Below are positions 49,801-58,800 of a DNA stretch of 64,000 nt, piece after piece (position 1 is the stretch's first letter; each line of letters starts with the position of its first letter). The position numbers were made by a program, and so were the translations under genes. The DNA comes from Eleginops maclovinus (taxonomy: Eukaryota; Chordata; Actinopteri; Perciformes; Eleginopidae). The notes under the pieces were generated by a model that had not been told where the DNA came from, ran no database searches, and saw only the letters and a list, made by a program, of their open reading frames with translations. The stretch is from the NCBI RefSeq assembly GCF_036324505.1, contig NC_086350.1, positions 26,518,257-26,582,256 on the forward strand, given 5' to 3'.

Positions 49801-52800
49801 CTAATAAATTACTTACAAACTTATTAGAAAGAGCTTTTCTTTTAATCAGCACAAATTCCTTTGCAGGTGTGCATATAAGTTATCTGTTGGTTGTTAAATA
49901 CGTTCAACAGCTCCAATGACCCGCCATTCCAATCAACACATTACAAGAAATGGCAAGAAGATCTTATTAGACACACATAACGAGAAAATCAGCAATGCAT
50001 AAAAAAAGAGAAAGAATAACAGTAGTAGGGGTGGGGGAGGGACTACACCGTTCATTTATTTTATGCATGTATTGCTATATAACATGTAGTGTAACCAGAG
50101 AAACACTCTTACATCATCGCTTACAGTACAAGTTAACAGTATCTTTATCATTATAATGGTTCCTTACTCCTGATGGATTCTCACAGTATGAGCCTCAGTG
50201 GTCAATATTGATATCCAGAGTGAGTATTATGGGCCCAATAATGTTGTTTTTATATTACAAAGTGATGATTTAATTGAGGAATGAGCTTATTGTTACCTCT
50301 CCTCTCGGGGTATGACAAGGAGGCGGCAGCTTCTTCGAAAAACTAAAGGAAATGAAAATAAAAAAACGAGTCCGGGATTGCGGTGAAATTGTCATTTATT
50401 TTAGGAAGGTTCCTAACGGAGAGAAATGACCCGGAAGTACCTCAGTGGCAGCCATGACAAGAGCTGTTTGATTCTTAGATGATAGGAAAGGAGCCTTGAA
50501 ACTTCCTTTATAACCTCCTTTAGGAAATACTGGACATTCCTTTACCAAAGGAAAGGAGAAAATGCTGTCCCACAATGCCTTCGGCAGCAACTTTTGCCGT
50601 CACACAACATTCGGCCGTTCATGGAAACAGCCGATCGTGACGAGAAATGCCTTTCATGAAAGTTACGCTTCTTATCAAGCAATTTAAATGTTATGCCATA
50701 ACTTTCCAAAGTGCTTTGTTTTGAACGTTCAGCTCTGCATTAATCAAAAGGAGAAATATGAACATTACTTTTTTACTGAAATGATCAAATGAAGTCCACA
50801 TTTCAAAGTGTTTGTCAGAGGCATCAGTTTCACTTCCCTTTTTTATTTCCGTAAACTTCCAACCTAATGAAGAATATATGTTCTCTGTTGTGCTCGTTCA
50901 TAAAGCATAAACAGCACCATCAGAGCACGGTGCAGAGTCTCTAGAGTCATTCAGTCAGTAGCGTTTTGGGCATGTGTGGGGAATTGGCAACATTGGCGCC
51001 CCCTGCATCTGCAGGCACCCCTGCTTGCTGAGAAGATGCGGTGCACACAGTGTTGCCAATTCGGCGGCTTTCGCGCGAAATCTGGCGACTTTTCAAATCC
51101 TCTTGGCGACTTATGTTTCCGAAAGTGACAAATCTAGCGACTTTTTGCTGGTGTTATTTGAGACTTTTCTGGTGTTTTGGAGAATCTGACGTGAAAGCAT
51201 GTATCGTTCTGCAGTTACTCTCCTCAACGAGCAGCGGGTGCTGCCGTGAGCCCCTCCGCCGTCCCAGTAGGCGGTCAGTCTCACAGTAACCTTGCGCCGC
51301 CGTCCCAGTTGCAGTCACAGCGACTCATACTCTCCGCGTGCGCAAAGCCACCTCTCGCGCGATTAATTTGCTGTAGAACGAAAATATAAATGTTTCTTCA
51401 CTGTGCACTGTCACATTCAAATAAATAACTGCATTTGACTCACACAGCCTCAGTCACTTACTGACCTCGTCCACTGTGTGTTTCCATCTCTGACATAAAC
51501 AGAACATCTAGCTAGCTAGCTCATCATGTCTAAACTTTATGCTCACAAATATCGAAAGGAGTGGGAATCAAACATTGAATTCAAAGGCTGGTTGAAGCCG
51601 TTTATTGGAGACGATACACGGGCATACTGCATGTATTGTAAGGCTGATTTCTAGGCCAAACTTTGCGATGTAAGAAAACTCATGGCAACTAAAAAACATA
51701 CTGAAAATGTAAAGCCTTATAACAGTTCCACCCAAAGTTAGCTACCACTAATGATTTTTTAAAATGACTCCACAAAAAAGGCTGAAGCCACCGCGGCATT
51801 AGTAGTGGAGCAGATAACATCATATTTTCAGAGGAATCGTTCAAATGGTGATACAAGCACCAAAATTGGCACAGATACTCCTTAGACATTACTCTTTCCA
51901 AAATTACTCGGGCCACTTGAAATTCAAGATGGCCGCCATATGCAGTAATAAATATGCACAGACCTGGCCAATATGGATGATTCTGACATCAATATATACA
52001 TTTTTTACCATGTAGAATACAAATCTGGGACCCTTAAACCTCTCAAAAGCTTACTTTTGCCTTATTCTGGCCTTAGATTAAAAAAAAAAATCCACTATGT
52101 TGGCTCATGGGCTAAACCAGGTGAGGGTCTTTGTGTGTGATTAAGCATTTCAGACTCTAACACATTGTGCATGAAGACAGCACCCACAGCTGATTGATGT
52201 GGAACATATCCCAGGAATGAAAACTGAATTGGATGCACCCCCAGTGAGGGGGGAGAGAGAGTCAGAAAAGAGTGGATGTCAAGGCACAGCCAGGGCACAC
52301 TGGTGACATCACACTGCAGTGAAACTCAGCATGGGGTTCAGTGTCGGCTAAACAAGCTTTACTGTAACTAGTAGTAGTGGTAATAGTATAGTTTAGTGTC
52401 CCAAATGCTATCTAATTCAAGCCTCACAACAGTAGTTAGATATTAGTTATATGTAGTTACTGTAGATAGCCGCACCTGAATCGACAGGGTGTGCCAGCGT
52501 GGGAGAGCCGAGGCAAGGGTGACAGGGCTTAACATGACTTTGCATGTAGTCACCCAGAAGGTGTACACAGATTGCACGGGACTTAAATGGCACTGGGTGA
52601 CCGATCGGGCTAGGTGTAGGATTTATGTCTGAACCTAGTTGTAACCTAGCCTGGGTGCCAGCCGAACTTAGCCCCGCCCATAACATTTTTGGTCGGGAAG
52701 TTCGGTCTGGCTCTGCTCCGTTGGGGAAACATTATCTCCGACCTTGCGACAGTCGAACCAATCAGATTGCCAGGGCGGGCTTTATACGATGATGGACAGA

Positions 52801-55800: not shown

Positions 55801-58800
55801 TTGTTGTTCACAAGTCAAGGCGAGAGTTCTCTGCAATAGCTATTGACCAGGCTTATGAGCAGTCAAATGTTGTTATCAAAGCTGACGGGGGAGCAGCTGG
55901 TATAACTGAATATCCCTCAGCACTGAAGAGATGGATGATAGCTGGTCCTCAAGTCTGCCACCTGGTTGCACAGTACAAGGCAGCATCTGAAGCCAATGAG
56001 GCTACAGAACAGACTAGCCACCACAATGAGACACCACAAGCCCAAAGGGTTTTCCTTGAGAAAGTCAAGAAGCTGACCCAAGTTTTGAAGGAGCCTGGCA
56101 ATCCTTTCTAGGAAGAGAGTGGGGATCTGTTGTCACTGGACACCAAGGATATCGCTCATCCCAGTGTAGCTGCACTTCTCAGCACACATTATGAGAGGGG
56201 CAGAACTTGTTTCCAGCAGTTCATGGAGGGCCTGCAAAATGAGGAAGTGGCCAGCTGCTATGACCCAATCAAGAAAAACAGGGTACACTTCTTCGGACAG
56301 GAACCAGCTTCTGCTGATGCTTCAAAGCAGAAAGTGCTGAAGGAGGACTGCCAGCTCTTCTCCAAGCTGTTCATCTCATGCCAGAGCAGAGAATGTGACC
56401 TGCACAAGTTCTTTCGTCATGAAAATCAGCAGTTCCCTGCTGCCTTGAGTGATGGTGGGAAGCTTTACTCCAGTCAGAAGTCCCAGCTTGCAGCCATTCT
56501 TGAGAACCATGTTACAATACCTTATGTGGAACCAAAGGCTGATGCAATCATCATTGATGGTTCAGCTCTGGTGAACACCCTGCCACCACGAACCTCAAAG
56601 ACTTTTGAAGACTATGCCATGTTGGATGTGCTCCCCAAAGTACAAGCATATTCCACCAAGTACAAGAGAAAAGACATCGTGTTTGATGTCTACCAGTCAT
56701 CAAGTCTCAAGGCTGAAACCAGGTCAAAGCGTGGACGTGGGGTAAAACGCAGAGTAACAAGCAAGGGCAAAATCCCCTCAAACTGGCGGAACTTCCTATG
56801 AGACAGTGATAACAAAACTGAGCTGTTCAGGTTCCTGGCTGACAAGATTGCACATGTCTACACCCAACCCAACTTGGTCATCATTACCAAAGATGAAGAT
56901 GTTGCCTGCAATGACACGATCAGCTTGGATGGGATAGAACCATGTAGTCACGAGGAAGCAGACACACGCATCTTCGTACATGCCAGGCATGCAGTGGAGG
57001 AGGGGAGCAAGGTCCCTATGGTTAAGGCCAGTGACACAGATGTCTTCATCATAGCAATCAGTGTTCTACCTCTCCTTCAACGGATTGGTTTGCTGCAGTT
57101 GTGGGTGTTCTTTGGCCAAGGATGCAACCTGAAGTGGTTTCCTATACATGACCTTTACACCTCTATCGGACTGGAAAAAAGCAAAGGAATACTCTTCTTT
57201 CATGCCTTCACTGGTTGCGATGTTGTTTCAGGCATCTGCAGCAAAGGGAAAAAGTCTGCATGGCAAACCTGGGATGTGTGTCTTAAGGCATCTGATGTCT
57301 TTGCCAATCTAAGCCAGTACCCACCAGCCGTAAGTGATGATGATCTGGAGGTCCTCGAGAAGTTTGTGGTGAAAATGTATGACAGGTCCAGTACAGTCGA
57401 ATGTGTAGATGATGCCAGACTGGAAATGTTTGCTCGGAAATAGAGGCCTTATGAAGCCATTCCTCCAACTCGTGCAGCACTACTTCAGCATGTCAAGCGT
57501 GCTGCCTATCAAGCAGGCTGAATATGGAGTCAGACAATACTGCGCCAACCAGAGACAGAGAGTCCTGCTGACTGGGGATGGATAAAGAGTGGAGATACAT
57601 GGAAGGTCTTCCGGACAACACTTCCACCCATTGCAGAGAGTTGCCAACAGCTGACCAAGTGTGGATGCCATTCAGAATGCCATGGAAGGTGCAAATGCTA
57701 CCAATATGGTCTTACCTGCACAAGGCTATGTAGCTGCAAGTGTGAGGGTTAGGAAAAGTTCAAATTCCCTATACTTTTAGACACCAAGATCATCCAAATT
57801 GATCAAAGTGGTGAGATTATGTGTCAAATGTCCCCATTTACAAGTCTGCATGGCGGCCATCTTCGAAAATCGGTGGCCATCTTGAATTTCAAGTTCTTTT
57901 TCAAAAGAGTAATGTCTAAGGGTATTTGTACCAAGTTCGGTGCTCGTATCACTATTTGAACGATTGTTTCACATACCTGCTCCACTATAGCTATGGCTGA
58001 ACACTGCTCCATGCTGGCATGTGACCACATTGGGGAAGCATGTAAAGCTGCGTTCTCAGACTCCACTGCTGCTACTCATTTTAAAATGCACAGGACAAAG
58101 TGCACGGAGATGATTAAACGTTTTTTAGCACCATACTTTTTGAAAAAGCTGGCCACAGATGTCAGTGACCCAGCGTTTCAGCCTCCTCCTTGATGAGTCC
58201 ACAGATGTTAATGTCTCTAAGTACCTGGGTGTTATGATAAGGTACTTTAGTGACACCAAACAGACAATTGTCTCAACATTTCTTGGGCTTATTGAGTTGG
58301 AGGGAGGAGATGCCAGATCTATAGCCTGAGCTGTTGTTGCTTTCCTGGAGAAGTGCTGTCTTCAAAAAGAGAAACTCCTGGGGATAGGGACTGACAATGC
58401 CTCTGTTATGACAGGGATTAATAATGGGGTCCATATAGTGCTGAAGGAGGAGTATGGCCTCAAAGATCTGGTTTTAATTCGCTGTGTGTGTCACTCTCTG
58501 CAGCTTGCTGTAAGTCATGCGTCCAATGACACCATCCCCTGTAGTGTGGAGTATTTGGTACGGGAGACTTATAAATGGTTTTCAGTGTCTCCAAAATGCA
58601 GAGAGGCTTACAAAGCAATATTTGAGACCACCAACTGTGGGGAGAAACCACTACAGATCACTGAGGTGTGTGCCACACGTTGGCTCTCCATAGAACCGGC
58701 GGTTTCCCCTCATTTAGGATCAAGTTAAGTGAACACTGCTACATGGCTGAGGTTTTATACTCCATGTACAGTGATCCTCAAAACATCCTGTATCTGACTT

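Follow-up and report, generated by a model that had tools for sequence, protein, structure and literature searches.

The window analysed here is a 64,000-nucleotide stretch of the Eleginops maclovinus genome (contig NC_086350.1, positions 26,518,257 to 26,582,256); positions below are numbered from its first base, and all features lie on its forward strand. It contains a 6185-bp element at 51803-57987, delimited by its inverted ends, by other genomic copies and by empty target sites. The element is very probably a dead, decayed DNA transposon of the AcademX type, once autonomous and moving by cut-and-paste, which was inserted into a resident hAT transposon with a 3-bp staggered cut, was later hit by a miniature inverted-repeat transposable element (MITE), and encoded one protein in which a DDE transposase is linked with a 5′ nuclease of FEN/XPG type.

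The element and its target site

The element is flanked by a direct TAG repeat (51800-51802 and 57988-57990), visible in the flanks and matched by the empty sites. Alignment of the two ends defines a left terminal inverted repeat of about 135 nt (51803-51937), which starts with TAGTGGAGCAG, and a right one of about 125 nt (57863-57987), which terminates with CTGCTCCACTA and is present once in the window copy. The pairing is imperfect, with a blastn core of 103 columns at 80.6% identity (E 2e-22), and somewhat longer than the approximately 100 nt given in a preliminary description of the locus, made from the sequence alone. Its local score is 109. Two controls were run: among 200 random pairs from the window, the top score was 121, possibly through self-overlap, and the next 27; among 2000 pairs separated by 400 bases or more, the top score was 174, from a different repeat pair, and the second highest 30. 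The ends of the element are clearly above chance, yet they are not the sole inverted pair within the window, and a chance origin is ruled out by these controls together with the independent genomic copies. The pair scoring 174 in the random control is an unrelated inverted repeat at 827 and 30665.

The target is a hAT transposon whose 5′ part occupies 51526-51799, in a frame that opens with an ATG at 51526 and is already broken by stops, as seen from the flank search and the empty sites; the remainder lies at 57991-59650. A hAT dimerisation domain is typical of this superfamily, and Dimer_Tnp_hAT matches the C-terminal part of the target within 59008-59637 at 26.1 bits, above the curated cut-off of 21.4, when TAG stops are read as Q. 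If the element is removed together with one TAG, the hAT codons read through in frame as AALAMAEHC. When the joined flanks were used as a query, the genome returned nine matches: the two own flanks, two partial matches that stop short of the junction, and five copies elsewhere that span it, at 94, 90, 90, 90 and 81% identity. All five are uninterrupted and carry a single trinucleotide at the junction, TAG in four and TAT in one; because they are continuous across it with one trinucleotide, the ends of the element are fixed to the base. The earlier placement of the element, with its TAG duplication and exact ends inside a hAT, is borne out by these data. The target frame, previously called intact, is reproduced at the join, but the hAT frame around it had already been broken.

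A 553-bp MITE-like insert, running from TAGCCTG to CAGGCTAG, is nested within the element at 52647-53199, between two copies of the 8-bp duplication TTGTAACC (52639-52646 and 53200-53207, read directly from the sequence). Duplications of 8 bp are a feature of hAT-type MITEs. Among 20 fetched copies of the element, 15 are free of it, aligning to about base 844 of the element and picking up again at about 1394, and the remaining five are missing part of this region. The first ~155 bp of the insert match four further genomic places at 98-99% identity, so the insert itself is young. Without the insert and one 8-bp duplication the element measures 5624 bp. Curated bivalve Academ elements average 5565 bp (PMC10294476), and because the two values are close, the suggestion that the element is larger than most vertebrate DNA transposons is weak.

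Downstream of the target, a reading frame at 61523-61777 looks exocyst-like, which would fit a fish genome, as would the size of the assembly and its transposons.

Other copies in the genome

The 606-Mb assembly (27 contigs) was searched with both ends of the element. Apart from itself, the left 1 kb found at least 45 matches, of which 24 begin at base 1 and two at base 2, and the right 600 bp found at least 67, its own included; these totals are lower bounds and count matches, not copies. The window's family has attained a moderate copy number in this genome. The 20 copies mentioned above were taken from the 26 places where the match starts at the first or second base. A right end is visible in 14 and absent from the fetched stretch in the other six. 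Read by eye, 3-bp duplications flank 13 of the 14 right-ended copies (tat, tat, ttt, aga, aag, atg, ttt, gca, ttg, acc, gaa, tgc and tta), counting L015 with its first base taken as mutated; L011 is the sole mismatch (ata/cta). The check proposed in the preliminary description, that other copies should share the ends and 3-bp duplications, was therefore passed by all right-ended copies except L011. TAG as a target consensus is ruled out, as the duplications vary both here and in the second family described below.

Over the left 840 bp, the window copy and 14 others differ from their majority sequence by a mean of 2.8%, and the window copy by 2.2%, counting substitutions only and excluding the incomplete left ends of L022, L023 and L025-L028. 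At this mean divergence the family does not look ancient. Gapped identity to the window is lower, at 85-93% for matches spanning the full 844 bp.

In nine of the 14 right-ended copies (L010, L012, L013, L015, L017, L019, L022, L023 and L027) the right terminal repeat is tandemly doubled, 156-160 nt apart, and the target-site duplication adjoins the outer repeat. The single right repeat of the window is 93-96.5% identical to the outer version and 75-90% to the inner one, gaps ignored. It may reflect a deletion that fused the two repeats, as would be expected from these values, although the reverse order is possible.

A transposase and a nuclease in one protein

The element contains one long, decayed open reading frame at 53300-57752, with an N-terminal Cys/His-rich region, a DDE transposase, a FEN/XPG-like nuclease and a C-terminal Cys-rich tail. 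An intact relative aligns to it in three frames, which implies at least four frame shifts, in addition to seven or eight internal stops. The translated frame of the preliminary description is one long coding region, but a pseudogene. The RNase H-like transposase region lies at 54495-56297, with its catalytic D at 54687-54689, a Glu in place of the second Asp at 55203-55205, and the E at 55857-55859. The FEN1/EXO1/XPG-like region occupies approximately 56478-57560, with the first catalytic Asp at 56556-56558, and its seven FEN-type acids are all kept in the translation. The tail (57660-57752) is tesmin/TSO1 CXC-like according to the source names of two relatives.

A search with the window protein, in which X was written for stops and frame joins and two short segments (about 53546-53690 and 54400-54490) were off-frame, scored the 7992 candidates sharing most words and found at least 103 relatives, many of ~1490 residues. 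They include proteins of the amphioxus Branchiostoma floridae, the carps Cirrhinus and Labeo, the eel Synaphobranchus, a porcelain crab, a leaf beetle, a sea anemone and mussels, and many come from unnamed sources. In alignments of 29 and 96 proteins (the latter taken from the 103 by leaving out P0155, P0211-P0213, P0215, P0216 and P0223), the DDE triad never varies, and seven carboxylates that follow a FEN1-like motif order vary in a single row at one position. Their mapping to FEN1 residues follows motif order and not a residue-level structural alignment.

The predicted fold of the nuclease domain has EXO1, FEN1 and XPG as its top matches, at about 12-14% identity, which together with the conserved carboxylates substantiates the FEN/XPG nuclease proposed earlier. 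The predicted fold of the transposase domain resembles those of the P-element transposase, Hermes and RAG1, with 6-7% identity in the P-element and Hermes structural alignments; this likeness and the invariant triad place the DDE transposase in the same chain as the nuclease. Foldseek searches alone gave no significant match, and phmmer and profile searches of PDB sequences gave nothing relevant to the nuclease. Pfam scans of seven relatives found no P, hAT, Zator or CACTA/CMC transposase family and no helicase family; in six of the seven, DUF6589 was sub-threshold in two, and another had chance-level matches. DUF6589 is precomputed for eight of the 103 relatives, and no mention of it was found in the literature searched.

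A second, young family

Seven places that share a single 76% match in the right-end search revealed a second AcademX-like family. A left-end search with L029 (1555-6657) recovered 11 left ends, the query's own included, that are 99-100% identical. Both ends were located in eight of the 11 copies, and 3-bp duplications flank all eight (seven by script, and C13 directly, with tac/tac at its true left end). A look-alike of the left end, TAGTGGGGGAGATAAC, is found at L029:1505, 50 bp upstream of the true C13 end, and is either chance or a remnant. From end to end the eight copies measure between 2306 and 8250 bp. Part of the protein is missing from nine of the 11, and C14 is just 3020 bp long. No intact full-length copy was present among the 60 protein matches scored in the genome (best 38 of 318 candidates). 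The best of these is the copy at C7:25191558-25195091, which covers the 1209-residue query from residue 1 to 1190, with 70% identity and one internal stop, the query itself being without its N-terminus and tail. The second family is a sister family that was amplified very recently. Its C22 copy (L053) contains an extra insert with a stretch repeated on both sides, like a long terminal repeat (LTR), which suggests a nested LTR-type element.

An amphioxus relative

A 93-row tree joins the window to a Branchiostoma floridae protein, with a support of 100 in the Shimodaira-Hasegawa-like approximate likelihood ratio test (SH-aLRT). The two are 82% identical over 537 residues. The tree is a quick one, with SH-aLRT as its only support; the window row fills 36% of its columns, and 11 of the 103 relatives were left out (P0155, P0211-P0216, P0218 and P0221-P0223). 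P0123 is a UniProt gene model. The amphioxus protein is the closest named long relative found, and its pairing with the window, taken with the young copies, points to a possible horizontal transfer between distantly related animals. In a broader form, AcademX elements would have passed between marine animals that are far apart, one exchange between a cephalochordate and a vertebrate giving rise to the window's family, and the recently transposing sister family would constitute a live vertebrate system for studying a FEN-type nuclease in DNA transposition. We propose this tentatively, with slightly less than even confidence.

The amphioxus likeness could instead reflect old vertical lineages that have coexisted since the early chordates, or nearer relatives that have not been sampled, an explanation that is doubtful on balance but a serious one. 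It is favoured by the many parallel lineages of the family tree, most rows of which have no species name, and by two proteins that also weigh against horizontal transfer: P0062, alone among 119 relatives, is nearer to the window than amphioxus on the C-terminal part (85.7 versus 81.0%, 84 columns), and P0118 is nearer over just 55 columns (87.3 versus 85.5%). Vertical descent has to accommodate a window copy only 2.2% away from its family majority that is nonetheless 82% identical to amphioxus at full SH-aLRT support, against 71% to the eel, 65% to the two carps and 61% to the crab. Carriage of the element by a virus was rejected: in a scan of viral contigs 32 stretches were matched, none of them a relative.

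A possible role for the nuclease

In a transposition by this protein, the DDE domain would cut the ends of the element and join them to the target at a 3-bp stagger. The FEN-like domain could then trim the 5′ flap or non-transferred strand at the joints, or act on the donor ends, and gap filling by repair would leave a clean 3-bp duplication. FEN-type enzymes have broad roles in repair, and the domain might instead serve an accessory function outside the transposition chemistry, such as regulation or the steering of repair pathways. We consider this rather unlikely, as across 86-89 aligned proteins the seven FEN-type carboxylates vary about as little as the DDE triad, and the nuclease and transposase domains form one chain. 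The length of the duplication in two Academ lineages has, moreover, been tied to a helicase versus a nuclease in PMC10045372.

This genome offers in a single vertebrate precisely defined ends, empty sites, a young sister family rich in deletion copies, and a model for a transposase carrying a flap-type nuclease of its own. What the nuclease does, and how it relates to duplication length, a connection suggested in PMC10045372, become directly testable.

Probable assignment to AcademX and comparison with known systems

Academ is, in our view, among the less studied superfamilies of DNA transposons. AcademX and AcademH were reportedly first described by Kojima in 2020, and the AcademX nuclease is of the XPG type; an Academ element described with XPG was not recognised in the literature searched. 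Academ is a DDD/E superfamily (PMC9587614). Its AcademH lineage generates duplications of 9-10 bp and its AcademX lineage duplications of 3-4 bp, a difference linked to the helicase and the nuclease that AcademH and AcademX, respectively, are said to encode (PMC10045372). A comparison of teleosts lists 987 Academ copies for zebrafish, 791 for medaka and 334 for stickleback, or 0.01-0.02% of the respective genomes, whereas tetraodon has none (PMC4746887).

AcademX is the best label for the element, as judged by features matched to published descriptions; the Academ name is given because 3-bp duplications and a nuclease fit the AcademX features in print (PMC10045372). The 3-bp length holds for the TAG of the window, 13 of the 14 family copies, all eight of the second family and the empty sites. 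The transposase has an invariant D, D, E and the corresponding fold, with E second in the window copy, and the same element encodes a nuclease with an EXO1/FEN1/XPG fold and seven carboxylates. The Academ-like label given to the element from its sequence alone is supported on these three features. AcademH is not matched, with 3-bp duplications and no helicase family in the seven Pfam scans. It is highly improbable that the element is a member of some other superfamily whose DDE core is similar (P, hAT, Zator or CACTA/CMC) and merely captured its nuclease. P and hAT elements make 8-bp duplications against 3 bp here, and the seven relatives scanned with Pfam matched no transposase family of these superfamilies, hAT included; their only notable match was DUF6589, below threshold in two. 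Conservation of the nuclease residues throughout the aligned family shows that the domain is not a local capture.

Compared with known systems, the element shares with AcademX a DDE transposase, a partner nuclease, 3-bp duplications, a length of ~5.6 kb and inverted ends, and no tested feature differs; the tandemly doubled right end of many copies is an additional feature. AcademH belongs to the same superfamily by publication, but combines a helicase with 9-10-bp duplications, in contrast to the nuclease and 3 bp found here (PMC10045372). The DDE core is RNase H-like and has a long helical segment ahead of the last Glu, as do those of the P element and of the hAT transposon Hermes, although these align structurally at only 6-7% identity, generate 8-bp duplications and are not known to carry a FEN-like nuclease. 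Finally, the nuclease domain resembles FEN1, EXO1 and XPG in its fold and in the motif order of its seven carboxylates and basic Lys/Arg, but differs from them in sequence (about 12-14% identity) and in being fused to a transposase, whereas they are repair enzymes.

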